DNA of 19,571 bases from contig USDU01000015.1 in the NCBI GenBank assembly GCA_900553635.1, positions 1 to 19,571 of the forward strand, given 5' to 3'. A program made the translations under genes and the position numbers. The notes beneath the pieces were generated by a model that saw nothing but the letters and a program-made list of their open reading frames with translations, was not told the DNA's origin and searched no databases. Positions 2,611 through 19,571 of this stretch are shown piece by piece; the first letter of the stretch is position 1, and each line of letters starts with the position of its first letter. This stretch comes from an uncultured Lachnospiraceae bacterium (lineage in GTDB: Bacteria > Bacillota_A > Clostridia > Lachnospirales > Lachnospiraceae).

Positions 2611-2665
2611 CACCGGAACCCCGGAAAAAGATACTCTTAAGACATATTTTGTAGTTATTTTGTAA

Positions 2666-2694: not shown

Positions 2695-2744
2695 GGAAAA
2701 AGGGAATGTACTTTACATAAGAATATACACAGGAGATTTGAATT

Positions 2745-3095: not shown

Positions 3096-3113
3096 ATACA
3101 TAGCGTAGTATAA

Positions 3114-3142
3114 GGGCTCTCGCTTGCGCGAGGGTTCTTTTT
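3114..3142 (+). terminator. Intrinsic terminator of the Hpt gene
   Basis: Arms 3114-3123 (GGGCTCTCGC) and 3128-3137 (GCGAGGGTTC) pair over 10 positions, using a few G-U pairs, around a TTGC loop, and are followed by TTTTT. It starts 19 bases after the stop codon. Confidence 0.85.
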
Positions 3143-3151
3143 ACTTAAACA

Positions 3152-3311: not shown

Positions 3312-3327
3312 GTCCGTTTTCTCTATT

Positions 3328-4317: not shown

Positions 4318-4366
4318 GTGTTTCTCCACTTTTCTGAAATTGTGTTTTTACGCAATCCAATCTGAT

Positions 4367-4395
4367 ATTATACTGGATTTCAGCCGCAAAGGCAA
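4367..4395 (-). promoter_or_regulatory. SigA-type promoter of the RelA/SpoT-domain gene
   Basis: On the minus strand TTGCCT (4395-4390) and TATAAT (4372-4367) are 17 bases apart. Transcription would start near 4360, about 43 bases before the ATG at 4317. Confidence 0.7.
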
Positions 4396-4472
4396 GCAGC
4401 AGGCTCTGTATTCCCTATAAATTCAGCATTTTTGACACATTTTCCGTAGCTTTTTCGGCAGATATTCACAAA

Positions 4473-4509
4473 GAATCCTGCAAAGCAGGATTCCATAGGA
4501 ATTTCCTAT
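4473..4509. repeat. Two adjacent palindromes upstream of the alarmone synthetase promoter
   Basis: GAATCCTGC-AAA-GCAGGATTC (4473-4493) is a perfect 9-bp inverted repeat. It is followed directly by ATAGGAA-T-TTCCTAT (4495-4509), a perfect 7-bp inverted repeat. They lie between the transporter terminator and the promoter at 4367-4395. They could be a REP-like intergenic repeat, remnants of a second terminator, or protein-binding sites. The rest of 4396-4515 is AT-rich with no gene visible. Confidence 0.6.
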
Positions 4510-4515
4510 TGCACA

Positions 4516-4553
4516 AAAAAACCGCGCAGTCTGCGAAAAACTGCGCGGTTTTT
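4516..4553 (-). terminator. Intrinsic terminator of the nucleoside transporter operon
   Basis: AAAAACCGCGCAG (4517-4529) and CTGCGCGGTTTTT (4541-4553) form a perfect 13-bp stem around an 11-base loop. On the minus strand the stem is followed by a run of T. It begins about 20 bases after the stop codon of the last permease gene. The A/T flanks make it usable in both directions. Confidence 0.92.
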
Positions 4554-4572
4554 ATTTCCCATATTTTTACTT

Positions 4573-5565: not shown

Positions 5566-5567
5566 GA

Positions 5568-6665: not shown

Positions 6666-8190
6666 GGCTCTCGTCCCCTCCTACTCTGGTCATCATCAGG
6701 CCGACCTCATTTTTATCGGTTTTCCGGGCGTCCACGATGCCGCTGACCTCGCCGCCGCAGAGCACCATGATCTTGTCGCAGAGCTCTACCATCACGTCCA
6801 GATCCTCGCCGACGAAAATGACGGCTACGCCCTTCTTTTTCTGTTCATTGAGCAAATCGTAAATGGTATAAGAGGAGTTGATATCCAGTCCCCTTACCGC
6901 GTAAGCAGTCAGAAGCACGGTGGGGGCGGAAGCAATCTCACGGCCTACCAGCACCTTCTGCACGTTACCGCCGGACAGACGGCGGACCGGGGTGGCGATA
7001 CCCGGGGTCACGACCTCCAGCTCCTTCACTACAGACTCTGCCAGCTTCCTGGATGGTCTGCGGTTGGTGAAGGGGGTTCTGCCCTTTCGGAAGGAACGGA
7101 GCATCATATTATCCGCCAGGTCCATATTCGCCACCAGGCCCATGCCCAGACGATCCTCCGGCACGAAGGAGAGGGACACGCCCATTTCAGCGATTTTCAG
7201 GGGATCTTTGCCAAGCAGAGGCTCCTCGTGGCCGTCGTCCTCCACATACTCGATGGTTCCGGTCTCCACAGGCTGTAACCCTGCGATGGCCTCCAGAAGC
7301 TCCTTCTGCCCACAGCCGGAAATGCCTGCGATACCCAGAATCTCGCCGCTCTTTGCCGTAAAGGACACATTTTTTAACTTCTGAATACCATCCTCGCTGC
7401 GGACGGACAGATCCTTCACCACGATACGCGGCTTCGGATTCACCGGATCCGGGCGGGCAATATTCAGGGTCACCGCATGACCTACCATCATGTTGGTCAT
7501 CTCGGTGACGGTCGTGTCTTTGGTCGCCATGCTGCCGATGTATCTGCCGTCCCGGAGGACTGCCACACGGTCAGACAGGGACTCTACTTCGTGCATCTTA
7601 TGGGTGATGATGATAATGGCCTTGCCGTCGTCCCGCATTTTCCGGAGGACACGGAATAGCTTTTCGGTCTCCTGGGGCGTCAGCACGGCGGTGGGCTCGT
7701 CCAAAATCAGAATATCCGCGCCGCGGTACAATACCTTTACGATCTCCACGGTCTGCTTCTGGGATACCGACATATCATAAATCTTCTGCTTCGGGTCTAC
7801 CTCGAAGCCATATTTCTCACAGATCGCCTCGATTTTCTTCGAAGCCTCTTTGATATTCAGCTTTCCCTCCAGACCCAGGATAATGTTCTCTGTGGCGGTA
7901 AGCACGTCGATCAGCTTGAAATGCTGATGCACCATGCCGATACCAAGATTCAGGGCGTCCTTCGGGGTCTTGATGACCTCTTCCTTTCCATTGATAAAGA
8001 TCTGGCCCTCATCCGGATAATAGATACCGGCCAGCATATTCATCAACGTGGTTTTTCCGCTTCCGTTTTCGCCCAGAAGCGCCAGGATTTCGCCCTTGTA
8101 GATATCCAGATCTACCTTTTCATTGGCAACTACAGAGCCAAAGGTCTTTGTAACGTTTTTCATTGAAACTGCGGCTACTTTGGTTTCCAT
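6658..8190 (-). CDS. Double ABC ATPase of the nucleoside importer, with degenerate second site
   Basis: The 510-residue protein has two fused nucleotide-binding domains. The first has an intact Walker A (GENGSGKT, 40-47) and Walker B (LILDEPTA, 161-168), but its signature is SVSQKQ (141-146) rather than LSGGQ. The second lacks the Walker A lysine (GISGCGQKE, 289-297) and has TAYAVRGLD (428-436) at Walker B without the catalytic Asp-Glu, yet keeps a good LSGGN (405-409). Only one composite ATP site is therefore likely to hydrolyse. I chose the ATG at 8190, which has GGGAAGG about 9 bases upstream and matches the family length; an in-frame start at 8253 would add 21 residues from a hairpin region. 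It energises import through the two permeases encoded downstream. Confidence 0.93.
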   Translation of the reverse strand: METKVAAVSMKNVTKTFGSVVANEKVDLDIYKGEILALLGENGSGKTTLMNMLAGIYYPDEGQIFINGKEEVIKTPKDALNLGIGMVHQHFKLIDVLTATENIILGLEGKLNIKEASKKIEAICEKYGFEVDPKQKIYDMSVSQKQTVEIVKVLYRGADILILDEPTAVLTPQETEKLFRVLRKMRDDGKAIIIITHKMHEVESLSDRVAVLRDGRYIGSMATKDTTVTEMTNMMVGHAVTLNIARPDPVNPKPRIVVKDLSVRSEDGIQKLKNVSFTAKSGEILGIAGISGCGQKELLEAIAGLQPVETGTIEYVEDDGHEEPLLGKDPLKIAEMGVSLSFVPEDRLGMGLVANMDLADNMMLRSFRKGRTPFTNRRPSRKLAESVVKELEVVTPGIATPVRRLSGGNVQKVLVGREIASAPTVLLTAYAVRGLDINSSYTIYDLLNEQKKKGVAVIFVGEDLDVMVELCDKIMVLCGGEVSGIVDARKTDKNEVGLMMTRVGGDESHE

Positions 8191-8218
8191 CTTTTGTTTC
8201 CTTCCCTTGTTTATGACG

Positions 8219-8273
8219 GATCCGCAAAACGGATCAAAAGGACGGCGCGGCATATTCGCTGCTGCGCCGCCCT
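8219..8273 (-). terminator. Tandem hairpins after the lipoprotein gene, likely partial terminator
   Basis: A 14-position stem with one mismatch and one G-U pair (8239-8252 with 8260-8273, GC-rich) is followed on the minus strand by TTTT. A second perfect 6-bp hairpin, GATCCG-CAAAA-CGGATC, follows at 8219-8235. Lying between the solute-binding lipoprotein and the ATPase gene, they probably attenuate read-through and stabilise the lipoprotein mRNA, so that more binding protein than ATPase is made. Confidence 0.7.
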
Positions 8274-8309
8274 GTGCTTTTTACTTAAGCGTAAGCGTTC
8301 AGGCTCGTA

Positions 8310-9557
8310 TTAGAATGCGGTATCCAGAAGATCGATGCCGTCGATATTTACATTGAAGTACGGAGCAGAACGGTACTCAGACTCATGGAAGTATCCGTCG
8401 CTTACGACCTCATGATCCGGTGTATACTCTGCATCGGTATCTACATCTGCCTCGTAGCTGGTCAGCTCCTGGCCCTCTACGGTGAAGGTAGAAGTATCAA
8501 ATACATGCAGGTCGCCGGACTCGATCTTAGCCTTTGCCTCGTCGATGGCTTCCTGTGTTCCCTCTGCGACTGCGCTTCCCAGAGCACTCAGCTCTACAGA
8601 ACCGGTTGCCAGGGTTCCTGTCCAGTCAGCGTCGATGGCCTCTCCGTTTGCTACGCAGTTGATTGCGTACTCAAAGTACGGCTCCCAGTTTACTCTGGAG
8701 GATACCAGGAAGGTGTTCGGGCATGCGCTCTCGGTGCTTCCGTTATAAGATACGTTCGGTACGCCTGCGGTCTCGCATGCGGTCGGAGCTCCCATGGAGT
8801 CTGCATGCTGGCTGATCAGAACGCAGCCGTCCTGGATCAGCTTGTTTGCTCCCTCTTTCTCTGCTGTCTCATCGTACCAGGAACCTGTGAAGGTTACTTC
8901 CATGGTAGCAGTCGGGCATACGGAACGCGCGCCCAGGAAGAAGGATGTGTAACCGGAGATAACCTCTGCGTAGGTAAATGCTCCGACGTAACCGATCTTA
9001 GCCTGCTCTGCGGTAATATCGCCATTGTCAATCATCTCATTCAGCTTCATGCCTGCGGCGATACCTGCCAGGTAACGTCCGTCATAGATGGAAGCGAATG
9101 CGTTGTGGAAATTGTCCAGATTCTCTGTATGCGCCTTGGTTCCGGTTGCGTGGCTGAACTGTACCTCCGGATACTCCTTGGCTGCCTCGATCATGTAATC
9201 CTCATGTCCAAAGCTGTCTGCGAAGATGAAGTTGCAACCTGCGTCCGCCAGTTCGCATGCTGCCTCGTAGCACTCCTGACCCTCCGGAATATTGGTCTTG
9301 GTCATGTACTCGACGCCCAGCTTCTCGCAAGCCTCTTTTGCGGCGTTCATGAAGTTCAGGTCATATGTGGAATTCTCATCGTGCAGGAAGATAAAACCTA
9401 CCTTGACATCTGCCAGGGAAGCCTCTCCCTCTGTTGTGGTGGACTCTGCGTCTGTCTTTGTATCCGCAGAAGCCTTGTCAGAAGATCCGCCGCAGCCTGC
9501 CAGCATGCCGACGGTCATAGCCAGTACAGTAATGAGACTAAGTACTCTCTTTTTCAT
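8310..9557 (-). CDS. BMP-family nucleoside-binding lipoprotein (PnrA/NupN type)
   Basis: The 415-residue protein begins with a lipoprotein signal peptide: positive MKKR, a hydrophobic stretch, and a lipobox LAGC with acylated Cys22, then a Ser/Thr/Glu-rich linker to about residue 50. The mature part has the BMP fold features VKVGFIFLHDENSTYDLNF, a region ending ADSFGHEDYM, and IGYVGAFTYAEVISGYTSFFLGA cut across a typical hinge. BMP proteins bind purine nucleosides and hand them to an ABC importer, and here the ATPase and two permeases follow directly. The start has AGGAGG 7 bases upstream. The Trp/Asp/Phe contacts that would define the ligand cannot be assigned by eye, so specificity for guanosine is not proven. 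Confidence 0.93.
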   Translation of the reverse strand: MKKRVLSLITVLAMTVGMLAGCGGSSDKASADTKTDAESTTTEGEASLADVKVGFIFLHDENSTYDLNFMNAAKEACEKLGVEYMTKTNIPEGQECYEAACELADAGCNFIFADSFGHEDYMIEAAKEYPEVQFSHATGTKAHTENLDNFHNAFASIYDGRYLAGIAAGMKLNEMIDNGDITAEQAKIGYVGAFTYAEVISGYTSFFLGARSVCPTATMEVTFTGSWYDETAEKEGANKLIQDGCVLISQHADSMGAPTACETAGVPNVSYNGSTESACPNTFLVSSRVNWEPYFEYAINCVANGEAIDADWTGTLATGSVELSALGSAVAEGTQEAIDEAKAKIESGDLHVFDTSTFTVEGQELTSYEADVDTDAEYTPDHEVVSDGYFHESEYRSAPYFNVNIDGIDLLDTAF

Positions 9558-9590
9558 AACGTTCCTCCTATGTGTTTTCCCATTATTTGG

Positions 9591-9626
9591 ATGTTGAGTC
9601 TGTCGTTGTCAGTCAATTCTCAACAT
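9591..9626 (-). promoter_or_regulatory. 5' hairpin of the nucleoside transporter mRNA
   Basis: ATGTTGAG (9591-9598) and CTCAACAT (9619-9626) form a perfect 8-bp outer stem, with a possible inner CTG/CAG pairing. The predicted transcription start is close to 9625, so this hairpin sits at the very 5' end of the message. It may protect the mRNA or take part in control; it does not match a purine riboswitch. Confidence 0.55.
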
Positions 9627-9631
9627 GTTAA

Positions 9632-9661
9632 AGTATAAGCGTCTGACTCGTACTTTGTCAA
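9632..9661 (-). promoter_or_regulatory. Strong SigA-type promoter of the nucleoside transporter operon
   Basis: The minus strand has a consensus TTGACA (9661-9656), an 18-base spacer and TATACT (9637-9632). Upstream, 9662-9720 is very AT-rich and could act as an UP element; it also contains a 10-base palindrome ACTTATAAGT at 9695-9704. The untranslated leader would be about 67 bases. Confidence 0.85.
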
Positions 9662-9755
9662 TATATTTATTAATTCTTGTTAAATATTTTATTCACTTAT
9701 AAGTTTATCTTATATGTTTAATGATGACGTCTTATAACAGTAGAATCCTGTTTTG

Positions 9756-10106
9756 TCAACCGTCTGTAACTTCGATCTCTTTAATCAAAAACTCATTGCC
9801 CCGGCGGAGATAGGTGTGTTCACTGCCGCAGTGGGGACAGGTCCTGCCGTGGGCCACGGTAGGATATTCCTGCCCGCAGTCCTCGCAGAAGGTGACGGCG
9901 TCGATCTGCTCGATCTTAAGCTCTGCTTCCTCCGTCACAGGCTCCTTTTTCCGGGCCCAGTTCCAGCAGTCGATGAGGTAATCGTGGATGATGCCGGTGA
10001 CCTCGCCGATTTCCAGGGTGACGGCGGAGACTTTTTTTACATTATTTTCCTCCGCCACCTTTTTTACGTCGCGCACGACGTAGAATATCACTCCCAATTC
10101 GTGCAT
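9756..10106 (-). CDS. hypA: HypA, nickel metallochaperone
   Basis: The 116-residue protein has the two defining HypA features. One is the N-terminal Met-His-Glu with nickel-binding His2. The other is a zinc site made of two CxxC pairs (C74/C77 and C90/C93). I chose the ATG at 10106 because the His must be residue 2; an in-frame TTG at 10133 would bury it. AAGGAA lies about 9 bases upstream. HypA passes Ni2+ to apo-hydrogenase or urease, working with HypB. Here it is the last gene of a nine-gene operon that begins with hypB and contains no hydrogenase gene, so its target is probably another enzyme of this operon or one encoded elsewhere. There is no clear terminator after it, so read-through toward the transporter operon is possible. 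Confidence 0.93.
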   Translation of the reverse strand: MHELGVIFYVVRDVKKVAEENNVKKVSAVTLEIGEVTGIIHDYLIDCWNWARKKEPVTEEAELKIEQIDAVTFCEDCGQEYPTVAHGRTCPHCGSEHTYLRRGNEFLIKEIEVTDG

Positions 10107-10149
10107 AGTATTAAGTTCCTTATTTTTATTCAAAATAGATTTTGTGTTG

Positions 10150-10185
10150 GAAACAGGTTCCTGTATTTCTATAGGAACCTGTTTC
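10150..10185 (-). repeat. Perfect 13-bp hairpin between the flavoprotein gene and hypA
   Basis: GAAACAGGTTCCT (10150-10162) and AGGAACCTGTTTC (10173-10185) pair perfectly around a 10-base loop. On the minus strand no T-tract follows, so this is more likely an mRNA-processing or stability element, or a weak attenuator of hypA, than a true terminator. Confidence 0.7.
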
Positions 10186-10193
10186 TATTCACT

Positions 10194-13001
10194 TTATTTT
10201 TCCTTATTTGTAACGATCTTCACCGCGCGCTTCAGCTGATAGGGCAGGATATGCTTGAACTTATCCTCCGCCTTCACCATCTTGGAGCACTCCGGATGAT
10301 CCCGGCGCAGGGTAATGGCGTCAAATTCGCACTTGGTAGTGCAGACGCCGCAGCCGATACACTTATTCTCGTCCACGATGGTGGCGCCGCAACCAAGACA
10401 TCTTGCCGTCTCCTTGCGCACCTGCTCCTCGGTCAGGGTCAGATGAGCGTCCTTAAAGGATTTGGACGGCACTGTCTCGTCCACGCCTTCGATCTGGCGG
10501 GAGGAATTATCGTAGCTCTCTACGGAGATATTGCTCTTATCCAGCTCGTTGAACTCCCAACGGTTCCGTCCGATGGTCATATGGCCGTTGTGGACGTAGC
10601 GGTGCAGGGATTCTGCCGCGTAGTGGCCTGCCGCGATGGCGTCGATGGCGAATTTCGGACCTGTATACACGTCTCCGCCCACGAAAATATCCGGCTGTCC
10701 GGTCTGATAGGTCAGCTTATCCGCCACGATGGCCGGACCGTTGAAGGTCACGTTCTCGCCCTCCAGCAGATTGCCCCAGACGCTTCTCTGGCCTACCGCG
10801 AAAATCACGCGGTCACAATCAATCCGGATGGTCTCATTTTCGTCATAGGTCGGCGGGAAGCGGCCCTCTGCGTTCTTGACAGAGGTACACTTCTTAAAGA
10901 TGATACCGGTCACCCTGCCGTTCTCGGTCAGAACCTCCTTCGGTCCCCAGCCGTTCTGAATCTTTACGCCGTCTTCATTTGCCTCGCGTACTTCGTCATC
11001 CGCTGCAGGCATCTCTGCCTCAGACTCCAGACAAAGCATATGAACCTCGCCGGCTCCGCTTCTGGCGCTGACTCTGGCCGCGTCGATGGCTACGTTTCCG
11101 CCGCCTACGACCACGACTCTTCCGGTGTAAGAGGTCTTGCCGGTGTTGGCCTCCCGCAGATAATCAATGGCTGTGGTGGTTCCTTCCGCGTCGTCTCCGG
11201 GCACGCCGGGTCTGCGGCCCGCGCTGCAGCCGATGGCGATATAGAAGGCCTTGTAGCCCTGCTCACGGAGCTCTTTCAGGGTCACATCTTTGCCGACCTC
11301 CACGCCGGTCTTAATCTCCACGCCCATCTCGCGCATGACGTCGATTTCTGCCGCGATGACATCTTTTTCCAGCTTATAGGAGGGAATGCCGTAGCGGAGC
11401 ATACCGCCGGGCTCCTCATTCTTCTCAAATACTGTGGGACGATAGCCCTTCTCCGCCAGATAGAAGGCCGCACTCATACCTGCCGGGCCGCCGCCGATGA
11501 TGGCGATTTTCTCCGGGAAATGCTCCATATGGATGCTGGCCGGAATCACCACGGGCGGAATATAGCGGGTCTCTGCCTTCAGATCCTGCTCCGCGATGAA
11601 CTTTTTCACTGCGTCGATGGCTACCGCCCGGTCAATGGTGCCTCTGGTGCAGGCGTCCTCACAGCGGCGGTTGCAGATGCGTCCGCAGACTGCCGGGAAG
11701 GGATTCTGCTTCTTGATTAAAGCCAGAGCCTCCTGATATTTGCCCTGGGAAGCCTTCTTCAAGTAGCCCTGTACGGCAATGTGTGCCGGACAGGCGGTCT
11801 TACAGGGTGCGGTACCGGACTTGTGGCTGTTGATACGGTTGTTGTCGCGGTAGTCGGGATCCCACTTGTCCTTGCCCCATTTCACTGCGTCCGGAAGCTG
11901 CTGCTTCGGATACTTCACCTCGGTTCCGTCCTTCTGGCAGAGCTTCTGTCCCAGTCGGGTCGCACCTGCCGGGCAGTACTCCACGCAGCGTCCGCAGGCC
12001 ACGCATTTATCCTTGTCCACGTGAGCCACGTAAGCGGAACGGGACATATTCGGGGTGTTGAACAGCTGAGAGGTCCGCAGTGCGTTACAGATATTTACAT
12101 TACAGTTGCAGATACCGAAAATCTTATTGTCGCCGTCGATGTTGGTTATCTGGTGTACGAAGCCGTTGTCCTCGGCGCGCTTTAAGATGGCCATGGCCTC
12201 CTCGTAGGTGATGTCATGGCCCTTGCCGGTCTCGCGGCAGTAGTCCGCGAAGTCGCCCACGCCGATGCACCAGCCGAAATCATCGTCTGCCACGCCCTCG
12301 CCGATAACCTTACGGGAAGCACGGCAGGAGCAGCGGCCCACGCCGATGTGACCCTCGTATTTCTTCAGCCAGTAGGACAAGTGCTCGATGTCCATGGACT
12401 GATTTTCCATGGAAATGGCTTTCTCCACCGGGATGACATGCATTCCGATGCCTGCGCCTCCGGGCGGTACCATCTGGGTAATGCCGGCCAGGGGAATGAA
12501 CGTCATGCGTTCAAAGAAGGCAGCCACGTCCGGATGCTCCTTCAAACGGGGATTGCTTCCGTCCGGCAGCTCCTCCATGTTGAACAGCTCGGCGGAACCG
12601 GGCACGAACATGGGCAGAATATATCTGCGTTCCGTCTGTTCCCGGGTGCGGCCATTGTGGTCGTAATGATAGCCGTAATCGTACTCCAGAAGTCCGATAT
12701 AACTCATCTCATCCAGCAGCTTCTGGAATTTTTCTTCACCCTCCTTCGGGATTTTGTTCAGGTGGCACAGCTCGGAAAAGGTGTAGGGCACGCGCTTTTT
12801 CATGGATAAGCCGACCTCTGCCATCTCCTCGGTAATGATTTCCGCCAAGCCCCAGTATTCCGGATCCTCCACCTTAACGCCGCCCATGATGTGTCCGGCT
12901 ACGTCGGTGATTTTCCGTCCCAGAGCGATGATTTTCTCGCTGGGCGCTTTGTCGTTTTTGTGGTTCGCGGGCCACTGGTTGTATTGTTCCATGTCAAACA
13001 T
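10194..13001 (-). CDS. Large FAD/NAD(P)-binding oxidoreductase with multiple iron-sulfur clusters
   Basis: The 935-residue soluble protein has several modules. Residues 1-320 are an uncommon N-terminal region with a winged-helix-like stretch and a Cys-rich part (C224, C226, C245, C255, C298, C300, C305). A ferredoxin motif CVACGRCVEYC follows at 333-343. Residues about 400-470 match the Cys-rich N-terminus of glutamate synthase small subunit (GltD). A GltD-type flavin fold follows, with FAD motif IIGGGPAGMS (501-510) and NAD(P)H motif VVVGGGNVAIDAA (630-642). The C-terminus has a second ferredoxin module with C868, C871, C881, C884, C887 and C891. It probably feeds electrons from NAD(P)H to a low-potential acceptor, most simply the activase and dehydratase-like pair of the same operon. 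It is not glutamate synthase: no GltB partner is nearby and both ferredoxin modules are extra. Confidence 0.85.
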   Translation of the reverse strand: MFDMEQYNQWPANHKNDKAPSEKIIALGRKITDVAGHIMGGVKVEDPEYWGLAEIITEEMAEVGLSMKKRVPYTFSELCHLNKIPKEGEEKFQKLLDEMSYIGLLEYDYGYHYDHNGRTREQTERRYILPMFVPGSAELFNMEELPDGSNPRLKEHPDVAAFFERMTFIPLAGITQMVPPGGAGIGMHVIPVEKAISMENQSMDIEHLSYWLKKYEGHIGVGRCSCRASRKVIGEGVADDDFGWCIGVGDFADYCRETGKGHDITYEEAMAILKRAEDNGFVHQITNIDGDNKIFGICNCNVNICNALRTSQLFNTPNMSRSAYVAHVDKDKCVACGRCVEYCPAGATRLGQKLCQKDGTEVKYPKQQLPDAVKWGKDKWDPDYRDNNRINSHKSGTAPCKTACPAHIAVQGYLKKASQGKYQEALALIKKQNPFPAVCGRICNRRCEDACTRGTIDRAVAIDAVKKFIAEQDLKAETRYIPPVVIPASIHMEHFPEKIAIIGGGPAGMSAAFYLAEKGYRPTVFEKNEEPGGMLRYGIPSYKLEKDVIAAEIDVMREMGVEIKTGVEVGKDVTLKELREQGYKAFYIAIGCSAGRRPGVPGDDAEGTTTAIDYLREANTGKTSYTGRVVVVGGGNVAIDAARVSARSGAGEVHMLCLESEAEMPAADDEVREANEDGVKIQNGWGPKEVLTENGRVTGIIFKKCTSVKNAEGRFPPTYDENETIRIDCDRVIFAVGQRSVWGNLLEGENVTFNGPAIVADKLTYQTGQPDIFVGGDVYTGPKFAIDAIAAGHYAAESLHRYVHNGHMTIGRNRWEFNELDKSNISVESYDNSSRQIEGVDETVPSKSFKDAHLTLTEEQVRKETARCLGCGATIVDENKCIGCGVCTTKCEFDAITLRRDHPECSKMVKAEDKFKHILPYQLKRAVKIVTNKEK

Positions 13002-13050
13002 AGGGTCATCTCCTTTTTCTTTTTAATATATTTACTCCGGCGCGCAAGAA

Positions 13051-13758
13051 TTAGCTTTCGTGAAAGTGGATCTCCCGTAAGCCTTCCACTTCATCACATA
13101 CCTGCTTCAATCCGCAGACCCCGCAGTCCATGACCAGGTTCTTCATCATGTGATCGAGCGTTTCGGTTATGCGCTCGCCTTCCCGTCCTAGCGCTTCCAG
13201 CTCCTGATACGGGAATCCATTCGCCGTCACATAATGGATTTCCACTGCCTCCACCTCCGGGTGGCTGTGAAAGGCCGCGATCATCCGGCTGCCGGTCTTC
13301 GCGAAATTCAGACCTTTTTTCAGGGCTTCTTTGCCAATACGGACGCTCTCCCGCCGTTTGGAGGAAGATACCCGCAGCATAAAGCCCTCCGGGTAAAAAT
13401 GGTAGCGGGTATACTCAAGATTCCGGATAGCCCGGTAGAGCTTTTTCCCCTCGCCCAGGGTATCCTCGCCCACCCGCACCAGGGCGATCCTTGCAAATGG
13501 CGTATCAGCGTCGATTTCCGGCAAATCCGTCCCGGTTAAGAACACGCCGTCGCCGGGAACCAGGTCTTTCGAGGCCGTCACCAGGGTGACTCCCAGGGCC
13601 GGCAGGCTGCCGCCGCCCAGTTCGTAGGCCATGTCGCTTCTGAGAATCATGCTCCGGTCGGAGACAACGGGCCAGGCGGTGGCGTCGTGGAGCAGCTGCT
13701 GCTTTTCACCATTCAGCAGCGCCCGGATTTTCCTTATGGTTTCATCATACAGCTTCAT
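13051..13758 (-). CDS. Short homologue of acetyl-CoA synthase / CdhC beta subunit
   Basis: From recalled sequence patterns, this 235-residue protein resembles the middle of ACS (AcsB/CdhC). AYELGGGSLPALGVTLV (44-60) resembles the ELGG region. VFLTGTDLPEID (72-83) resembles the IGPDL strand. EYTRYHFYPEGFML with RRESVRIGKEALKKGL (136-150) resembles the INYAEGVMH...VRISKDAxxKGL region. The C-terminal CxxC-x5-C (C212, C215, C221) resembles the start of the A-cluster site, CTLCQSFAPNHVC, with three residues fewer between the second and third Cys. The protein ends there: the fourth cluster Cys and the CGC residues that hold the distal nickel in ACS are missing. It therefore cannot build a normal A-cluster alone. 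Its ATG overlaps the stop of the small membrane protein gene (TAATG). Nickel-loading genes in the operon support a metal role. Orthology is not proven without a profile search. Confidence 0.7.
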   Translation of the reverse strand: MKLYDETIRKIRALLNGEKQQLLHDATAWPVVSDRSMILRSDMAYELGGGSLPALGVTLVTASKDLVPGDGVFLTGTDLPEIDADTPFARIALVRVGEDTLGEGKKLYRAIRNLEYTRYHFYPEGFMLRVSSSKRRESVRIGKEALKKGLNFAKTGSRMIAAFHSHPEVEAVEIHYVTANGFPYQELEALGREGERITETLDHMMKNLVMDCGVCGLKQVCDEVEGLREIHFHES

Positions 13759-13925
13759 TATAAATGCTTATCCCTGTCGATTTTATCGTAATGCTTTTCA
13801 AAGAGCGGTGCCAGCGCGGCGGTCAGCTTCATATCCAGATTGAAGAAATAGACCACAAAGGACAGAACGAACAAAACTGCCGCAATAATCGCGATTATCA
13901 CGATTGCATGTAAAATTCCTGTCAT
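13758..13925 (-). CDS. 55-residue single-pass membrane protein in the nickel operon
   Basis: This short gene fills the gap between the activase and the ACS-like gene. It encodes a 55-residue protein with a hydrophobic helix at about residues 5-28 (LHAIVIIAIIAAVLFVLSFV and following) and a charged C-terminal tail rich in Lys, Asp and His (HYDKIDRDKH near the end). AAGGAGG lies within the end of the activase gene about 8 bases before its ATG. Its TAA shares a base with the ATG of the next gene. Coupling at both ends and a good ribosome site indicate a real gene. It may anchor the soluble enzyme complex at the membrane. No family is recognised. Confidence 0.8.
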   Translation of the reverse strand: MTGILHAIVIIAIIAAVLFVLSFVVYFFNLDMKLTAALAPLFEKHYDKIDRDKHL

Positions 13926-13928
13926 TCT

Positions 13929-14729
13929 TTATGCCTCCTTCGCCATGCCTTTCTGTCTTGCGAACTCCGCCGCTCCCAGGGCTCCCATGAGCTGCGGGTC
14001 GATGGGAAGCTCGGTAACCTTCAGCTTCAGTACCTTTTCAATGGCCGCCTTCAGGCCCTCGTTCTTTGCACAGCCGCCGGTCAGGGTCACACTGCCTACG
14101 GCTCCGGCCTTCTTGCTCATGACAAAGCAGCGCTTCGCCACGGAAAGCTCGATGCCCGCCGCGATCTCGTCCATGGGCTTGCCCTCGCCCACCAGGGAAA
14201 TCACCTCGGATTCGGCAAAAACCGTACACTGGGATGTAATCGGAATCACATTTTTCGCCTGTAAGGAAAGTCTGGAAAACTCGGTCAAATCCATTTCAAA
14301 GGCTCTGGCCATGGCCTCGAAGAACCGTCCCGTTCCCGCCGCGCATTTGTCGTTCATGGCAAAATTCAGCACCGTGCCATCCGTATCCACAGCGATACCT
14401 TTTACGTCCTGTCCGCCGATGTCGATAATAGCACGGACGCTCGGATCCGCCACATGGACGCCCATGGCGTGACAGCTGATCTCGGAGATATTTTCATCCG
14501 CAAAGGGCACCTTATTGCGGCCATAGCCGGTGCCCACCAGATAGGCCAGATCCTCGGCGCTTCCAAGCTCCGGCACCTTCTCCACGGCCTGCTTTAAGGC
14601 GTCCTCGGCGCTTAAAACCGCGTTGATACGGCTTCGAAGCGTCACGTCGGACACCATTTTCCCATTCTCGTCGATAATGACGCATTTTGTATACGTACTT
14701 CCGGAATCACATCCGCCAAAATATTTCAT
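13929..14729 (-). CDS. ATP-dependent activase of 2-hydroxyacyl-CoA dehydratase type (HgdC/BcrA/BadF family)
   Basis: The 266-residue protein belongs to the ASKHA ATPase fold. It shows the phosphate-1 motif GGCDSGSTYTK (5-15), IIDIGGQDVKGI (101-112), NDKCAAGTGRF (126-136) and SQCTVFAESEVISL (166-179). C129 and C168 are the positions that hold the single [4Fe-4S] cluster bridging the homodimer. Such 'archerases' use ATP hydrolysis to push one very low-potential electron into the dehydratase or a double-cubane reductase. I chose the ATG at 14729, with GGGGGAG 6 to 7 bases upstream and the normal family length; the in-frame extension to 14774 has no family match. It follows the two dehydratase-like subunits, its expected partners. 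Confidence 0.93.
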   Translation of the reverse strand: MKYFGGCDSGSTYTKCVIIDENGKMVSDVTLRSRINAVLSAEDALKQAVEKVPELGSAEDLAYLVGTGYGRNKVPFADENISEISCHAMGVHVADPSVRAIIDIGGQDVKGIAVDTDGTVLNFAMNDKCAAGTGRFFEAMARAFEMDLTEFSRLSLQAKNVIPITSQCTVFAESEVISLVGEGKPMDEIAAGIELSVAKRCFVMSKKAGAVGSVTLTGGCAKNEGLKAAIEKVLKLKVTELPIDPQLMGALGAAEFARQKGMAKEA

Positions 14730-14767
14730 GTCTCTCTCCCCCTTCTTACCATGCAGAGCCTGAATTC

Positions 14768-16318
14768 TTACCATGACTGCTCATCCGTCAGAATCTCCAG
14801 GCTCGGATCCAGCGGTTCTTCCCGGAACACGGTCCGCATGTAACGGTTTACCTGATCGCGTATGGCCTGTCTGGAAATGACTCTCGGGTCAAACAGATCG
14901 TGGGTTACCCAGATCAGATGGATGCCCTTCTCCCGGGCCTTTTCCTCGAACTGGCCGTGCATGCCGGTCAGGGCCTTGCAGCTCATGTGCTCCCAGAGAA
15001 TGACCGTGTCGGCCCGGAATTCCTCGCAGAACTCCCAGAGCTCATCCAGCAGTACCCTGTAGCCGCCGTGAGTCCGATTTCTCATGATCATATTCTCGGT
15101 CAGCCACGCCATATCATAGATGGCCTGCTCCTTGTCATCCTCGGACAGCACCCTGGTGGACACCATGGACAGCATATCCGTCAGCGGCAGGATGCCCCAG
15201 CAGTTCTGCAGCCAGATCAGAAAATCAAAGTAGAAATGGGACTGCACGCCCCAGACGATGGCCCGGTGGCGGTACTCCGGCAGGACCTTATGTTTCTCCT
15301 TATAAGCCTTCTCGGCCAGCGCCGTAATCTTCCGGTCTGCCTCCAGGAAGTCCGGATCCTTGCCGCAGATAGCCATGTAATTGGTCTCTGTATACAGAGC
15401 CAGGTTGGAGCCGAACACCTGCGGGTAATCGGTCTTATTCATTTCCAGCCACTCCAGACGGTGACGAGTGGACTCATTTACACGCTTAGCACAGGTGAAA
15501 TATGCGTCCCAGTCCCATTTCTCCCCAGTCTGCTCCTCGATGAACTGGATACAGTTCCGGATTTCCTGGGCTGCGTATTCCTGCACGTCCTCCTCCTGAT
15601 GGCGGAGCGGCGCCGCCAGCTGGAAGCAGGGCACGCCGTCCTCCAGCTCCAGCCGCTTGGAAATGACGCTGTTGCCCATGAGCGACCCATCGCAGGTGGT
15701 GTTGCACTGTACCGCGCAGGCGCCCAGTATCGGAAAATCGTCGTCGATGGATACGCCCGCCTCGGCCTCCGGCATGGGACATACGTCGCCGGGCAGACCG
15801 TATTCCTGTGCCACGTCAATGTAATGGCAGGCCCCGTACTGATTCAGAAGCACCGATACATAGACCGCCGGCGTCTCACGGCTCAGGCCCTTCAGGGTCG
15901 GGAAGCCCATCATCACGGCCGTCATCTCATTTTCATCCATCAGGACCACCTTGTCGGACAGCTTCTTATCATTGCCGATACGGCGATCCGCCTCGAACAG
16001 ATTGTCCAGAAGCTTCGCCACGTCCGCCATAACCAGGTCGAACTCGGTATGGGCGATACGAAGCTGCGGACCGCGCAGCCCCTGCGTGTGCCGATCCACC
16101 ATCATGGGCGCGGCCAGATAGTTGGCCATCCAGCGATAGCGGAAAAAGGCTTTGATGTTCCGGGGCTTCACGATGAATTTTGACAGAATCCCCATAATAT
16201 GTAACCAACGGGTGTAATCATAAAAGGTGTCCTTCAGTCCCCGCCATTCTCTGCGGTTCCGAACCTTGCCGGTGGTGTAGAAGCTTCCCAGCGGCTCGCT
16301 TCCCCATTCTTTTCCCAT
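14768..16318 (-). CDS. 2-hydroxyacyl-CoA dehydratase-like iron-sulfur subunit (large)
   Basis: The 516-residue protein is a divergent member of the HgdA/HgdB/BcrBC/double-cubane family. Candidate cluster cysteines are C164, C180, C201, C205 and C209, with a further conserved-looking Cys at C447 in DTVILWEHMSCKALTG. The C-terminal part (KAREKGIHLIWVTHDLFDPR and following RTRV-like helix) resembles the last domain of the family. It is longer than classical subunits, with about 150 extra N-terminal residues. Its ATG overlaps the stop of the partner subunit gene (TAATG), a sign of stoichiometric synthesis. The family takes an electron from the activase and performs radical dehydration or reduction, often on acyl-CoA. 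The real substrate here is unknown. Confidence 0.85.
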   Translation of the reverse strand: MGKEWGSEPLGSFYTTGKVRNRREWRGLKDTFYDYTRWLHIMGILSKFIVKPRNIKAFFRYRWMANYLAAPMMVDRHTQGLRGPQLRIAHTEFDLVMADVAKLLDNLFEADRRIGNDKKLSDKVVLMDENEMTAVMMGFPTLKGLSRETPAVYVSVLLNQYGACHYIDVAQEYGLPGDVCPMPEAEAGVSIDDDFPILGACAVQCNTTCDGSLMGNSVISKRLELEDGVPCFQLAAPLRHQEEDVQEYAAQEIRNCIQFIEEQTGEKWDWDAYFTCAKRVNESTRHRLEWLEMNKTDYPQVFGSNLALYTETNYMAICGKDPDFLEADRKITALAEKAYKEKHKVLPEYRHRAIVWGVQSHFYFDFLIWLQNCWGILPLTDMLSMVSTRVLSEDDKEQAIYDMAWLTENMIMRNRTHGGYRVLLDELWEFCEEFRADTVILWEHMSCKALTGMHGQFEEKAREKGIHLIWVTHDLFDPRVISRQAIRDQVNRYMRTVFREEPLDPSLEILTDEQSW

Positions 16319-17505
16319 TATTTCCCACCTCCCTGGATTTTCTTAATCTCGATGCTCTCCACGAAGGCCTGGACACGGGTACGAAGCTGGCCGGAATGAC
16401 CCACCGCATAGGGGCGGTCCACCGACAGCACCGGGTAATGGTACTGGTCCCGGAGTACCTGGGTTCCCACCGTCCGCTCGTATGCCCAGGGATCGCAGAA
16501 TTTCATCTGCTCATAGATGATACCGTCCGCATGATATTCCTCCGCCAGCTTCGCCACATAAGCGCGCCGTCCCTGAATCTTCTCCTGATTCATATAGCGG
16601 GCGCACTGGGCCCGGTTCATATACTGACGGCAAATCTGCGTCAGGGCGTCCTCATCCTCCGTCAGAATGATTTCATCCCTGCCCGGAAATGATCCGTAAC
16701 AGAAGCGGTCGGCGCACACGTAAGCGCCGCAGTCCTCAATGAGCTTCACCACATCCACATCATCCACCTCGGAGCCCACCAGCAACACCCGGGCACGGTA
16801 TTTCTTTGTGTCCGGTTCTCTGGTTTTCAGTTCCTCCAGGGTCTCCTCCAGAACCGGAATCAGCATGTCCTTCGGCGCCACATAGGTAGCCATGGTCAGG
16901 ATATGGAACTCGTAGCCGGTGATGCGCGGATGCTCCTCCTTCCGGTATTCGCCGATGGCGCGGATCAGCTGACAGACACGGTTGTGCTCCGCCACGGCCT
17001 GACGGATGGCACTGTCGGACACATCGATGCCGAAATGCTCTTTTAAGGGCGTCAGCACATGGTTCCGGCACTGCAAGGTATAGAGCTTCAGACCGTTTTC
17101 ATCATTTTTCATGGGAATCTCCATGTATTCATAAAAGAAGTCCGGCTTCTCCATGGCGTGCAGAAGCTCCATATTCTCGATGCAGCGGTTCAGCATAGTG
17201 CAGCCGTCCGGCGTGATCAGACAGTCCGTGAAGTTGTAGCCGCCTTCCATGGCACGCTCCAACAGAGCTCTGGTGTATTCGCACAGGAAGCTGGTCATAT
17301 AATAGGTGGCCATTTCCATGGAGCCGGTCCGGGGCGCCCGAAGACGCACCGAGAATGTCCCCGGAAGATTCAGAAGCGGTTCCGGAACATTTTCACAGAC
17401 CGTGGCGATGCATTTGCGGCCCTCACCCTGGGCCTGACGCACCAGATCGTTGTTGGCGTCCTCTAAAAGCCGCTCCAGCTCATAGAGATGCTTTAAGTCT
17501 TTCAT
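16318..17505 (-). CDS. 2-hydroxyacyl-CoA dehydratase-like iron-sulfur subunit (small)
   Basis: The 395-residue protein has the hallmarks of the HgdB/BcrB/double-cubane family. These are GRKCIATVCENVPEPLLNLP (29-48), a middle Cys group with ITPDGCTMLNRC (97-108), the motif MKFCDPWAYE (C337) corresponding to KFCDPEE, and the C-terminal GQLRTRVQAFVE. Cluster ligands are probably C37, C102 and C337 by analogy. I chose the ATG at 17505, preceded by a GAGGGGAGAGAGGG purine tract; the in-frame TTG at 17538 is a poor alternative. It forms the enzyme core with the product of the next, overlapping gene. Two unlike subunits plus an activase is the layout of dehydratases, but no CoA-transferase, acyl-CoA dehydrogenase or other fermentation gene is adjacent, so ordinary hydroxyacyl-CoA fermentation is unlikely. 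Confidence 0.9.
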   Translation of the reverse strand: MKDLKHLYELERLLEDANNDLVRQAQGEGRKCIATVCENVPEPLLNLPGTFSVRLRAPRTGSMEMATYYMTSFLCEYTRALLERAMEGGYNFTDCLITPDGCTMLNRCIENMELLHAMEKPDFFYEYMEIPMKNDENGLKLYTLQCRNHVLTPLKEHFGIDVSDSAIRQAVAEHNRVCQLIRAIGEYRKEEHPRITGYEFHILTMATYVAPKDMLIPVLEETLEELKTREPDTKKYRARVLLVGSEVDDVDVVKLIEDCGAYVCADRFCYGSFPGRDEIILTEDEDALTQICRQYMNRAQCARYMNQEKIQGRRAYVAKLAEEYHADGIIYEQMKFCDPWAYERTVGTQVLRDQYHYPVLSVDRPYAVGHSGQLRTRVQAFVESIEIKKIQGGGK

Positions 17506-17544
17506 TCCCTCTCTCCCCTCAGTTTTTCTTATTATCAAATGCTT

Positions 17545-18336
17545 TTAATGTTCCCCGTCCAGCAGACCGATTTTCGTCAGAGCTTCCCGTGCGCCCCGGA
17601 CGATGGCCGCATCCTTTGGCAGGAAAAATACATTTTCTCCCTTAAGATCAAATTCCGCCAGGGCCGCGTCCGACGGGATGTAGGCCAGCACCGGGATATC
17701 GCCCATATCCAGATACTGCTTCACATCCATAGAGGGCAGCCGGTTGGCGATGGCTCCCACCTGCTCGTACATGACCAACTCGTCCGCCACCTTTTTGATG
17801 GTCCGGATGACCTGCGTGCCCTTGCGGCTGGAATCGGTGATGAGAAGAAGGTGCGTCACCTTCTCCATGACACGGCGGTTGATCTGCTCGACGCCCGCCT
17901 CTCCGTCGATGACCACATAGTCAAAATTGTCAGCCAGAATGCTGATAACCTCCTTCAGGTACAGGTTTACCTTACAGTAGCAGCCTGCCGCCTCTGGACG
18001 TCCCACAGCGATGAAGCTGAAGCCGTCAGCCTCCACCAGGGCATCGAAGATGCGGTAACGGGCCTCGCCCAGCAGCTCCACCGCGTCCCGGGTGTCGCCC
18101 TTCTCAGCTGCCGCTACGACGGCTTTGCGAATATCATCAATGGTAATTTCCACCTCGATGCCCAGAGCCGTGGACAGCCCCACCGCAGGATCCGCGTCGA
18201 TGGCCAGGATGCGGCTGTCCGGGTGGTTTTCTGCCAGCAGGCGAACGATGCTGGCCGCAATGGAGGTCTTACCTACGCCGCCTTTTCCGGCAACGGCGAG
18301 GATTTTGGTATCATGCTTTTCTTTGTCTGATGGCAT
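17545..18336 (-). CDS. cooC: CooC-type nickel-insertion ATPase
   Basis: The 263-residue protein is a MinD/NifH-fold ATPase. It has the deviant P-loop GKGGVGKT (17-24), IDADPAVGLSTALG (46-59) at switch I, and VIDGEAGVEQINRR at switch II. GRPEAAGCYC (112-121) carries a CxC pair (C119, C121), the position at which CooC dimers bind Ni2+. CooC loads nickel into the C-cluster of carbon monoxide dehydrogenase, and AcsF of the same family serves the A-cluster of acetyl-CoA synthase. The ATG has GGGGAG 8 bases upstream, and the gene lies 21 bases after hypB. No CODH gene is in the window; an ACS-like gene four genes downstream is the obvious candidate client. CooC versus AcsF cannot be separated by eye. 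Confidence 0.9.
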   Translation of the reverse strand: MPSDKEKHDTKILAVAGKGGVGKTSIAASIVRLLAENHPDSRILAIDADPAVGLSTALGIEVEITIDDIRKAVVAAAEKGDTRDAVELLGEARYRIFDALVEADGFSFIAVGRPEAAGCYCKVNLYLKEVISILADNFDYVVIDGEAGVEQINRRVMEKVTHLLLITDSSRKGTQVIRTIKKVADELVMYEQVGAIANRLPSMDVKQYLDMGDIPVLAYIPSDAALAEFDLKGENVFFLPKDAAIVRGAREALTKIGLLDGEH

Positions 18337-18357
18337 AAAATGTTCTCCCCTCTTCCT

Positions 18358-19029
18358 CTAGCTTCTCCAGCTTTTTGCCTCTCTCACAATCCAGTCAGCC
18401 AGCGCCTCTACGCCCTCGCCGGTCTTTGCGGAAATGTAGAGAATCGTGATATTCGGATTCCTGAGCTTCGCGTTCGCCTCTAATTTTTCTTTGCTGAAAT
18501 CAAAATACGGCATCACATCCGTCTTATTCACCACCAGCAGATCGCATTTCTCATACATCAGCGGATACTTCAGCGGCTTATCGTCGCCCTCAGGTACGGA
18601 CAGGATTGTCATATTTTTCACAGCTCCCGTGTCAAACTCCGCCGGGCACACCAGATTGCCCACATTTTCCAGAATCACCAGCTCCGCGTCGTCGAGGCCG
18701 AACTCGTAAAGCCCCTGCCTCGTCATATCCGCGTCCAGGTGGCACATGCCGCCGGTGTGGATCTGGATGGACTTTACTCCCGCTTTTGTCATGGTCTCCG
18801 CGTCCACCGCCGAGTCAATATCAGCCTCCATCACGCCCATTTTGATACGGCCTTCCAGGGCCTTCGCCAGCGCCAGCAGTGTGGTGGTCTTCCCTGATCC
18901 CGGTGAGGACATCAGATTCAGCAGGAATACCTTCTTCTCCTTCAGCTCCTGCCGGAGTCTCTCCGCGTCCGCGTCGTTGTCCGCGAAGATGCTGCGCTTC
19001 ACTTCTATGATTCGAATTTTATCTTCCAT
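18358..19029 (-). CDS. hypB: HypB, GTPase for nickel insertion
   Basis: The 223-residue protein has Walker A SPGSGKTT (42-49), the metal site GGMCHLDA (93-100, with C96 and H97 that bind metal at the dimer interface), NLVCPAEFD (126-134) and the guanine-specificity motif NKTD (168-171). The N-terminal CxxGCxC high-affinity nickel site and the His-rich stretch of some HypB proteins are absent. HypB hydrolyses GTP while transferring nickel from HypA to the target enzyme. I chose the ATG at 19029, with GGGAG 9 bases upstream; an in-frame ATG at 19068 has no ribosome site. It is the first gene of the operon. Its partner hypA is the last gene, nine genes and about 8 kb away. Confidence 0.95.
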   Translation of the reverse strand: MEDKIRIIEVKRSIFADNDADAERLRQELKEKKVFLLNLMSSPGSGKTTTLLALAKALEGRIKMGVMEADIDSAVDAETMTKAGVKSIQIHTGGMCHLDADMTRQGLYEFGLDDAELVILENVGNLVCPAEFDTGAVKNMTILSVPEGDDKPLKYPLMYEKCDLLVVNKTDVMPYFDFSKEKLEANAKLRNPNITILYISAKTGEGVEALADWIVREAKSWRS

Positions 19030-19074
19030 TTCATAACGCTCCCATTCTTTTTGATCGTATATTATCATTTTCTG

Positions 19075-19102
19075 ACATTATTACACACTTGTAAAGTGGC
19101 AA
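19075..19102 (-). promoter_or_regulatory. Candidate promoter of the nickel/ACS-like operon
   Basis: The minus strand has TTGCCA (19102-19097), a 16-base spacer and TAATGT (19080-19075), which would start transcription about 39 bases before hypB. The -35 lies inside a perfect inverted repeat TGGCAA-AG-TTGCCA (19097-19110), which could be a regulator site. Neither box is strong, and a TATAAA at 19157-19152 is an alternative -10. Confidence 0.35.
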
Positions 19103-19137
19103 AGTTGCCAAAAAAATCACAATCTCTTTTATGGTCG

Positions 19138-19148
19138 TGGTCTGACCA
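19138..19148. promoter_or_regulatory. FadR/GntR-type operator 1
   Basis: TGGTCTGACCA is a perfect inverted repeat around one central base. FadR-subfamily regulators (FadR, LldR, PdhR) bind TGGTxxxACCA sites of this form. This copy lies on the hypB side of the divergent intergenic region, 36 bases upstream of the candidate hypB -35 box. Confidence 0.75.
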
Positions 19149-19193
19149 GATTTTATACATCTTTTCCAGGAAGCCTTCCGTTATTCTCTGGTT

Positions 19194-19206
19194 TTGGTCT
19201 GACCAA
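19194..19206. promoter_or_regulatory. FadR/GntR-type operator 2
   Basis: TTGGTCTGACCAA repeats the 11-base core of operator 1 exactly, with one more base pair of symmetry on each side. It ends 6 bases before the -35 box of the regulator gene, so binding would affect that promoter (autoregulation). The two operator centres are 57 bases apart, which would allow looping or cooperative control of both directions. Confidence 0.8.
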
Positions 19207-19212
19207 TTTTCA

Positions 19213-19241
19213 TTGACTTACCCAGGATTCCATGCTATATT
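19213..19241 (+). promoter_or_regulatory. SigA-type promoter of the GntR-family regulator gene
   Basis: TTGACT (19213-19218), a 17-base spacer and TATATT (19236-19241) fit a housekeeping promoter. Transcription would start near 19248, giving a leader of about 83 bases. Confidence 0.75.
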
Positions 19242-19252
19242 GAAGCTGTTGA

Positions 19253-19287
19253 AGCCGCAGGGTTCCAAAACCATCTGCGGTTGTTTT
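19253..19287 (+). promoter_or_regulatory. Hairpin with short T-tract in the regulator gene leader
   Basis: An 8-bp stem (19253-19260 with 19275-19282, one G-U pair) encloses a 4-bp stem GGTT/AACC, and is followed by GTTTTC. It lies at the start of the predicted leader. It may act as an attenuator or simply protect the 5' end. A smaller hairpin TCCTG-CTTTA-CAGGA follows at 19291-19305. Confidence 0.45.
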
Positions 19288-19330
19288 CTGTCCTGCTTTA
19301 CAGGAATTTTATAGGAAATGAGGTGCTTAC

Positions 19331-19571
19331 TTGGCTTTTAGGAAAATTGACGCGCCTTCGATTAAGGAGTTGTTTCTGAGCCAGATGGAGGAAATGATTC
19401 TCTCCGGCGAGCTGAAGCCGGGAGACAAGCTGCCGCCGGAGCGGGAATTGGCAGATACCATGGGAATCAGCAAAACTGTAGTACACGAAGGCATCCGGGA
19501 GCTTTCAAGACGGGGCTTTCTCGACGTGCTGTCCCGGAAAGGCGTCCATGTAGCCGACTATACCCGTACCG
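19331..19571 (+). CDS. GntR-family transcriptional regulator, FadR-like (N-terminal part, cut by window edge)
   Basis: Eighty residues are visible, covering the whole winged helix-turn-helix. They include MILSGELKPGDKLPPERELA, then ADTMGISKTVVHEGIRELSRRGFLDV and the wing residues SRKGVHVADY. This is a standard GntR DNA-binding domain, and the operator type upstream points to the FadR (FCD) subfamily. The start must be the TTG at 19331: AGGTG lies 5 bases before it, an in-frame TGA lies just upstream, and the next ATG (19385) would cut the first helix. The effector domain is outside the window. It is divergent from the nickel/ACS-like operon, and operators in the shared region suggest it controls both that operon and itself. 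Whether it represses or activates is unknown. Confidence 0.92.
   Translation, partial: MAFRKIDAPSIKELFLSQMEEMILSGELKPGDKLPPERELADTMGISKTVVHEGIRELSRRGFLDVLSRKGVHVADYTRT

Follow-up and report, generated by a model that had tools for sequence, protein, structure and literature searches.

A conserved gene set of gut and rumen bacteria joining a 2-hydroxyacyl-CoA dehydratase-like reductase, a CooC-type ATPase, and an ACS-like protein: a candidate nickel-dependent reductase system

The ATP-driven radical reductases of the benzoyl-CoA reductase/2-hydroxyacyl-CoA dehydratase (BCR/HAD) superfamily are, to our knowledge, not known to use nickel. In BzdNO, one of the best matched, the BzdN subunit holds its [8Fe-9S] cluster through Cys36, Cys73, Cys100, Cys263, Cys293, and Cys327, and BzdO holds a [4Fe-4S] cluster through Cys95, Cys128, and Cys380 (PMC11971306). 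A system of another kind is IsrA, a putative isoprene reductase of 901 aa (Kronen et al. 2023, PMC10134865). Besides two CxC motifs, at C180-C182 and C254-C256, it has ferredoxin clusters, a DPD domain II, and an FAD/NAD(P) domain. Its operon contains two HypA, one HypB, and a ferredoxin; of 988 homologs, 73% have a HypA nearby and 56% a HypB, and Kronen et al. propose that the six-cysteine center is a nickel site. Here, we analyze a stretch of 19,571 nucleotides from an uncultured Lachnospiraceae bacterium (assembly GCA_900553635.1, contig USDU01000015.1, positions 1 to 19,571; hereafter the window), in which nine genes bring relatives of both systems together with a CooC-type nickel ATPase and a small protein resembling acetyl-CoA synthase (ACS), here called ACSl. 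Six of the nine form a conserved core. Judging from their sequences, we favor, with about even confidence, the reading that this core encodes a nickel-dependent, ATP-activated two-subunit reductase of the BCR/HAD superfamily with its own maturation set.

All nine genes are on the minus strand, in the order of transcription HypB, CooC-like ATPase, HgdB, HgdC, activase, membrane protein, ACSl, flavoprotein, and HypA, and all nine are confirmed at the place given in the initial annotation (Table 1). They are two modules rather than one set: the core, composed of CooC, HgdB, HgdC, the activase, a 55-aa membrane protein, and ACSl, and module B, composed of HypB, the flavoprotein, and HypA. The proposal that the nine genes are one tightly coupled unit holds for the core. 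It is weaker at HypA, because 87 nt with a perfect 13-base inverted repeat (10185-10173 / 10162-10150, found by eye) separate this gene from that of the flavoprotein. No T run follows the repeat; HypA may be expressed separately. As initially noted, no carbon monoxide dehydrogenase (CODH), full ACS, NiFe hydrogenase, or urease was recognized among the window proteins scanned; neither Rfam families nor tRNAs were found when the window was scanned for them.

Genes of the core systematically co-occur. When named genome contigs were scanned with ACSl, 86 loci were obtained, and the best 80, mostly of Lachnospiraceae by title, were kept. Upstream genes were counted where the locus had 8 kb or more on that side (56 loci), downstream genes where it had at least 4.5 kb (61 loci), and 48 loci have both flanks. 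CooC is present in 54/56 loci, HgdB in 51/56, HgdC in 52/56, the activase in 55/56, and the membrane protein, searched with tblastn and aligned in 20 sequences, in 55/56. CooC, HgdB, HgdC, and the activase are found together upstream of the ACSl gene in 50 of the 56; in L125, L130, and L131 the core genes stay together in altered order. Module B is much less regular, with HypB upstream in only 10/56 loci, the flavoprotein and HypA in 35/61 each, and both of these in 32/61, so that the complete nine-gene set occurs in 10 of the 48 loci with both flanks. The idea of a single nine-gene system, for which a neighborhood search had been proposed, thus stands for the core and not for the nine. The recurrence of the core in order across many genomes, with the upstream palindrome TGGTCNGACCA in 11 of the 80 loci, takes the association beyond chance. 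Among other neighbors, genes for subunits of a 2-oxoacid:ferredoxin oxidoreductase lie near the operon in L042, L059, L060, L066, L074, and L076 (clusters c24/c31; those of L059 were identified), and clusters c8-c12 and c22, common in many Pseudobutyrivibrio loci, were set aside as housekeeping or unrelated after reading by eye.

The association is also found at the level of genomes. In a first family (397 genomes, the family of Pseudobutyrivibrio ruminis CF1b), the ACSl profile matches 32 genomes, 30 through a short ACSl-type protein and two through a full ACS (open frames of 723 and 726 aa). HgdC is present in all 22 ACSl carriers tested, a set chosen to take in carriers whose ACSl locus lacks HgdBC: in G019, G029, G435, G032, and G039, HgdC lies with HgdB at a site separate from ACSl, and G337 shows no more than two partial matches, the better at 1e-31. 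The second family comprises 210 genomes around G035, 19 of them with an ACSl-type protein. Of these 210, 80 genomes were tested, and HgdC is present in 19/19 ACSl carriers versus 0/61 others; these 61 were drawn from earlier result lists, not randomly, and one of them, G831, carries an ACSl fragment of 30 residues. Among 398 phylum-wide genomes, a strong HgdC match is found in the center genome only, with weak matches in three more. With HgdC in every tested carrier, split loci included, the core behaves as a system. Distances in the trees of the families correlate (r from 0.61 to 0.95, shared genome relatedness not removed). Copy numbers differ between components: in the second family there are 1 to 10 HgdC entries per genome, fragments included, and one or two of ACSl. 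The extreme is found in G980 and G1035 (L212-L228), genomes of ~2 Mb with ten HgdC entries each, including fragments, and no neighbors common to many copies. Among the matches listed, some ACSl homologs are labeled Selenomonadaceae (P0127), Clostridium gasigenes (P0135), and Spirochaetaceae (P0270), which suggests either a spread past the two main families or mislabeled records.

HgdB matches BzdN (8s02_B) with E = 4.9e-29. The six BzdN ligands, at the positions given in PMC11971306, align with C48, C86, C113, C280, C312, and C348 of HgdB (numbered from the listed open reading frame start at 17538; the gene itself, of 395 aa, starts at the conserved ATG at 17505). These are conserved in 57-58 of 58 sequences, and by this alignment HgdB keeps all six ligand cysteines of the [8Fe-9S] double cubane. 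HgdC has weak sequence matches with DCCP, MbdO, HadB, and BzdO, and the best matches of its structural model (pLDDT 80) are chains of BzdNO, MbdO, and HadB. Six of its cysteines (C180, C201, C205, C209, C373, and C447) and six histidines are conserved in 59-60 of 60 sequences, and C431 in 56/60. C180 has a cysteine counterpart in DCCP (the double-cubane cluster protein), MbdO, and HadB; C209 has one in DCCP and HadB; and C447 has one in MbdO and, in an insignificant stretch, Cys380 in BzdO. The catalytic His131 of BzdO has no match in HgdC, where its counterpart is Gly211, or Ser212 if C209 is set on Cys128, and no histidine occurs within residues 198-215; HgdC therefore does not qualify as a benzoyl-CoA reductase subunit by this residue. 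The activase retains its fold and varies little between loci: both C144 and C183 are found in 65/65 sequences. Every score with the curated BzdN, BcrC, BcrA, BcrD, and BzdQ models is below cut-off, as are those with the DCCP model NF040772 (146.5 and 43.6 bits, cut-off 350). Two PF06050 subunits with predicted Fe-S ligands and an activase in the same operon are the features that place the core in the BCR/HAD superfamily. In short, the core shares with the class I benzoyl-CoA reductase BzdNO and its activase, and with DCCP, a pair of HGD-D subunits, of which one has the six ligands of an [8Fe-9S] cluster, and the BcrA/D-type ATPase. It differs from BzdNO in a longer HgdC (516 aa) with further invariant cysteines and histidines and without a His131 counterpart, in near-obligate CooC and ACSl, and in having one activase gene instead of a BzdPQ-like pair.

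Among PDB sequences, the CooC-like protein is best matched by CooC itself (3kje), and the CYC pairs of the two line up; it has the P-loop, and C119-x-C121 is conserved in 60/60 sequences. It thus resembles CooC in sequence and in the CxC motif, and differs in serving a set that, in most of the 50 carrier genomes described below, lacks a CooS over cut-off or a full ACS. ACSl corresponds to ACS domain 2 by sequence, fold, and profile, and carries the Fe-S motif of the ACS A-cluster with the fourth cysteine changed to histidine (C-x2-C-x5-C-x9-H); this Cys3His motif is present in 235/235 full-length ACSl homologs. Relative to AcsB/CdhC, it lacks domain 1 and ends before the nickel-binding CGC segment in the C-terminal PF19436. 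The initial description as CdhC-like is thus right for domain 2 and the Fe-S motif and does not extend to a whole ACS β subunit. Several database records label ACSl as "carbon monoxide dehydrogenase". In the second family there is also a cysteine-free paralog of ~216 aa (L202, L203, and L204, from G1018, G957, and G869), which in G1018 is the only ACSl-type protein.

Under the favored reading of the core as a nickel-dependent reductase, and by analogy with the superfamily, the activase would take up electrons and use ATP hydrolysis to drive them at low potential into the double cubane of HgdB, from which they would pass to a cluster in HgdC. CooC would supply nickel to a Ni-Fe-S site located either on ACSl, which would then be a scaffold, an insertion partner, or a third subunit, or on HgdC, where the extra conserved cysteines and histidines would be candidate ligands: C201, C205, C373, C431, and the six histidines could be such further metal ligands. 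HgdB-HgdC pairs would be exchangeable catalytic units, consistent with the several paralogs per genome in one family, served by CooC, the activase, and ACSl as a shared maturation and activation set. Because HgdBC is duplicated and ACSl mostly is not, we favor HgdBC as the catalyst and ACSl as a shared nickel/Fe-S scaffold or insertion partner, while ACSl may be catalytic as a third subunit. The IsrA-type reductase of the window, with HypA and HypB, may feed electrons to the core or share a pathway with it. An acyl-CoA would be the default substrate expected from the superfamily; the initial annotation had suggested that a C1 or acyl-CoA compound may be acted on. Nickel would be the new element, and CooC is tied to the core as tightly as the enzyme genes are.

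Several observations weigh against this reading. A nickel chaperone gene is not proof of a nickel enzyme. HadB is not known as a nickel protein, and HgdC C205 aligns with one of its cysteines; having this counterpart, C205 is not special to this branch. The direct alignment of HgdC with BzdO is weak (E 8.6e-5), with C209 one residue off Cys128 and Cys95 outside it. The HgdC model is a single chain without cofactors, and the tail of ACSl that bears the Cys3His motif has a pLDDT of only ~43-62 by blocks. No activase is seen in L012, where there is sufficient flank; common descent of the genomes can also yield correlated trees; and the neighborhoods of HgdBC paralogs gave no hint of a substrate, ORF calls being unreliable in GC-rich contigs.

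The flavoprotein has the domain order of IsrA, and its CxC motifs, at 224 and 298, are 74 residues apart as in IsrA, a spacing found in 37/37 relatives. It has the features published for the IsrA (clade 9) type: ~900 aa, two CxC, DPD domain II, an FAD/NAD domain, and terminal ferredoxin clusters. Given this match in domain order and CxC spacing, the best reading of HypB, the flavoprotein, and HypA is that of an IsrA-type module attached to the core. A PDB search with the N-terminal part of the flavoprotein gave matches in the ferredoxin-like stretch only. In the nickel proteins, HypB C109 is conserved in 10/11 sequences and H110 in 11/11, and H2, C74, C77, C90, and C93 of HypA in 27/27. The module resembles the IsrA system also in having HypA and HypB nearby, and differs from it, as described, in being joined to an HgdBC core and in the absence of the IsrA ferredoxin and of a second HypA; its substrate may differ.

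A rival explanation of the locus, which we consider rather unlikely, is that the core is an ordinary Fe-S 2-hydroxyacyl-CoA dehydratase or ring reductase, that the nickel chaperones serve only the neighboring IsrA-type enzyme, and that ACSl and CooC are helpers of Fe-S assembly. HgdB and HgdC do keep the usual Fe-S ligands, no nickel ligand is proven, and HypA and HypB are already accounted for by the IsrA type as published. However, CooC tracks the core (54/56) and not the flavoprotein (35/61), its CxC is present in 60/60 sequences, and the HgdC residue matching BzdO His131 is not a histidine.

The initial annotation had proposed a check of carriers for CODH, full ACS, and hydrogenase. For 50 of the loci, the genome was searched for CooS, PF00374, PF19436, and the corrinoid protein. 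CooS is over cut-off in 9/50 carriers and not in the other 41; 12 more have weak matches, mostly at positions 326-586 in frames of 538-588 aa, taken for hybrid cluster proteins. PF00374, the large subunit of NiFe hydrogenase, is matched in 18/50, of which 17 match only its first 70 positions, in frames of 156-379 aa that we read as Ech-like. PF19436, the ACS A-cluster domain, is found in 1/50. Neither a CooS over cut-off nor a NiFe hydrogenase is present in 30 of the 50 carriers. A single absence says little, since the carriers are for the most part draft or metagenome genomes, but the overall pattern is not weak, and it speaks against the core being an accessory of CODH or of NiFe hydrogenase.

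A more specific alternative is that the core is itself a noncanonical CODH/ACS, in which HgdBC would reduce CO2 to CO at Fe-S(-Ni) clusters and ACSl would join CO, a methyl group, and CoA. It would explain an acetogen of this family. According to Valk et al. 2020 (PMC7000372), "Ca. Galacturonibacter soehngenii", a Lachnospiraceae member with a genome without CODH/ACS genes, shows in culture a CODH activity of 2.1 umol/min/mg and carbonyl labeling from bicarbonate, and both Pseudobutyrivibrio xylanivorans and Butyrivibrio fibrisolvens are relatives of it that do not have the full complex. The operon is present in genomes named P. xylanivorans and B. fibrisolvens (L023, DSM 14809, and L032, strain 16/4), and ACSl is related to ACS with its Fe-S motif kept. 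In addition, two carriers, G035 (Pseudoflavonifractor sp. MSJ-30) and G037, show neither the ACS A-cluster domain nor a CooS over cut-off but do possess AcsD and a fusion of AcsC with AcsE. Nevertheless, we consider this alternative very unlikely. ACSl lacks the CGC segment of ACS, G857 has a canonical ACS beside ACSl, P. xylanivorans (G017) has a CooS, and up to ten HgdBC copies are a bad fit for one CODH. The corrinoid protein is clear in 3/50 carriers, seven others having weak matches that lie in frames of 808-870 aa, and in the second family it is rarer in carriers (2/19) than in others (64/191; Fisher p 0.04), which rules it out as their general partner. Among genomes with a corrinoid protein, carriers more often lack ACS (2/3 versus 5/64 others, p 0.03), but one of the two, G037, was added by hand. 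Five noncarriers, some perhaps incomplete genomes, also have a corrinoid protein without ACS. It is similarly improbable, in our view, that HgdBC and ACSl are a second, CooS-independent nickel system making or using CO or an acetyl group, and thereby the enzyme of the carbonyl branch that is missing from acetogenic Lachnospiraceae with no CODH/ACS. If the CODH/ACS alternative were true, it would explain both acetogenesis and CODH activity in a Lachnospiraceae member lacking CODH/ACS genes.

The AcsC-AcsE fusions, of corrinoid protein and methyltransferase, lie at 9616-11898 in L140 and 1171-3633 in L141, and frames of similar length with a corrinoid domain are found in further second-family genomes. 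A 739-aa frame adjoining AcsD in L140 has no family match and looks spurious. AcsE is of no use as a marker of the methyl branch, as 367/397 genomes match it; most of the listed matches, in frames of ~800 aa or more, are taken for methionine synthase.

Methyl-coenzyme M reductase has an activation complex acting on its nickel cofactor, and by analogy the core could be machinery that uses ATP to activate the IsrA-type reductase reductively and to insert its nickel; we give this little credence, since the adjacency of flavoprotein and HypA to the core in 32/61 loci and to HgdBC paralogs in L217, L223, and L247 of the second family (flavoprotein alone in L235) is set against 26/61 loci without such a flavoprotein in reach, several HgdBC pairs per genome that would be unexpected, and a survey of IsrA relatives that, in its available part, gives HypA, HypB, TetR, and DUF5692 as common neighbors, not the core (PMC10134865).

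Upstream of the operon, the palindrome TGGTCNGACCA is a probable operator, present twice in the window. In the 11 related loci it occurs in one copy each, always ahead of HypB or CooC and 27 to 981 bases from the next labeled gene; among the remaining fetched loci, it is found in L227 only. The gene in L003 at the position matching the divergent gene of the window encodes GntR plus FCD. Downstream, at 4573-9557, lies a BMP-type ABC transporter (binding protein, ATPase, and two permeases) with below-cut-off matches to a "putative B6 transporter" set. The window BMP binding protein has no match in the 80 loci, which puts this transporter outside the system. A GGDEF/response-regulator protein (549-2576) and a PilT-family ATPase gene (19-552), maybe cut by the window start, have no visible link with the operon.

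Table 1. Genes of the operon and upstream elements in the window
Feature	Positions	Strand	Basis and remarks
HypB, nickel GTPase (module B)	18358..19068	-	TIGR00073 237.6 bits, cut-off 121; alternative ATG 19029
CooC-type nickel ATPase (core)	17545..18336	-	PDB 3kje E 1.1e-17; C119-x-C121
HgdB, HGD-D subunit of BzdN/DCCP type (core)	16318..17505	-	PF06050 292.9 bits; predicted [8Fe-9S] double-cubane carrier
HgdC, divergent HGD-D subunit (core)	14768..16318	-	PF06050 128.9 bits; BzdO/HadB-like fold; candidate active-site subunit
BcrA/D-type ATP-dependent activase (core)	13929..14774	-	TIGR00241 215.8 bits, cut-off 125; conserved start M16 at 14729
55-aa membrane protein (core)	13758..13925	-	motif FNLDMK; tblastn
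ACSl, ACS-like, CdhC-like (core)	13051..13758	-	235 aa; PF03598 26.9 bits, cut-off 24; ACS domain 2 + C-x2-C-x5-C-x9-H
IsrA-type FAD/NAD(P)/multi-[4Fe-4S] oxidoreductase (module B)	10194..13001	-	PF14691, PF07992, Fer4; 935 aa
HypA, nickel metallochaperone (module B)	9756..10106	-	PF01155 110.6 bits; ATG start (listed ORF: TTG at 10133)
Palindrome TGGTCNGACCA, probable operator	19138..19148	.	between divergent gene and HypB
Palindrome TGGTCNGACCA, second copy	19195..19205	.	between divergent gene and HypB
Divergent gene, GntR-like N-terminus, cut by window end	19331..19571	+	ORF, read as GntR by eye

The initial annotation knew of no characterized system with this composition. Part of that novelty is already in print, because HypB, the flavoprotein, and HypA match the published IsrA type (PMC10134865). 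For the core set, a literature search covering few subscription papers and no bioRxiv preprints found no description, and the available part of PMC13056359 does not mention the gene combination. If the favored reading of the core as a nickel-dependent reductase is true, the ATP-driven radical reductases would gain a metal, a route of maturation, and probably new substrates, in bacteria of the gut and rumen. The core also provides a testable candidate explanation of how an acetogen that has no CODH genes can show CODH activity.

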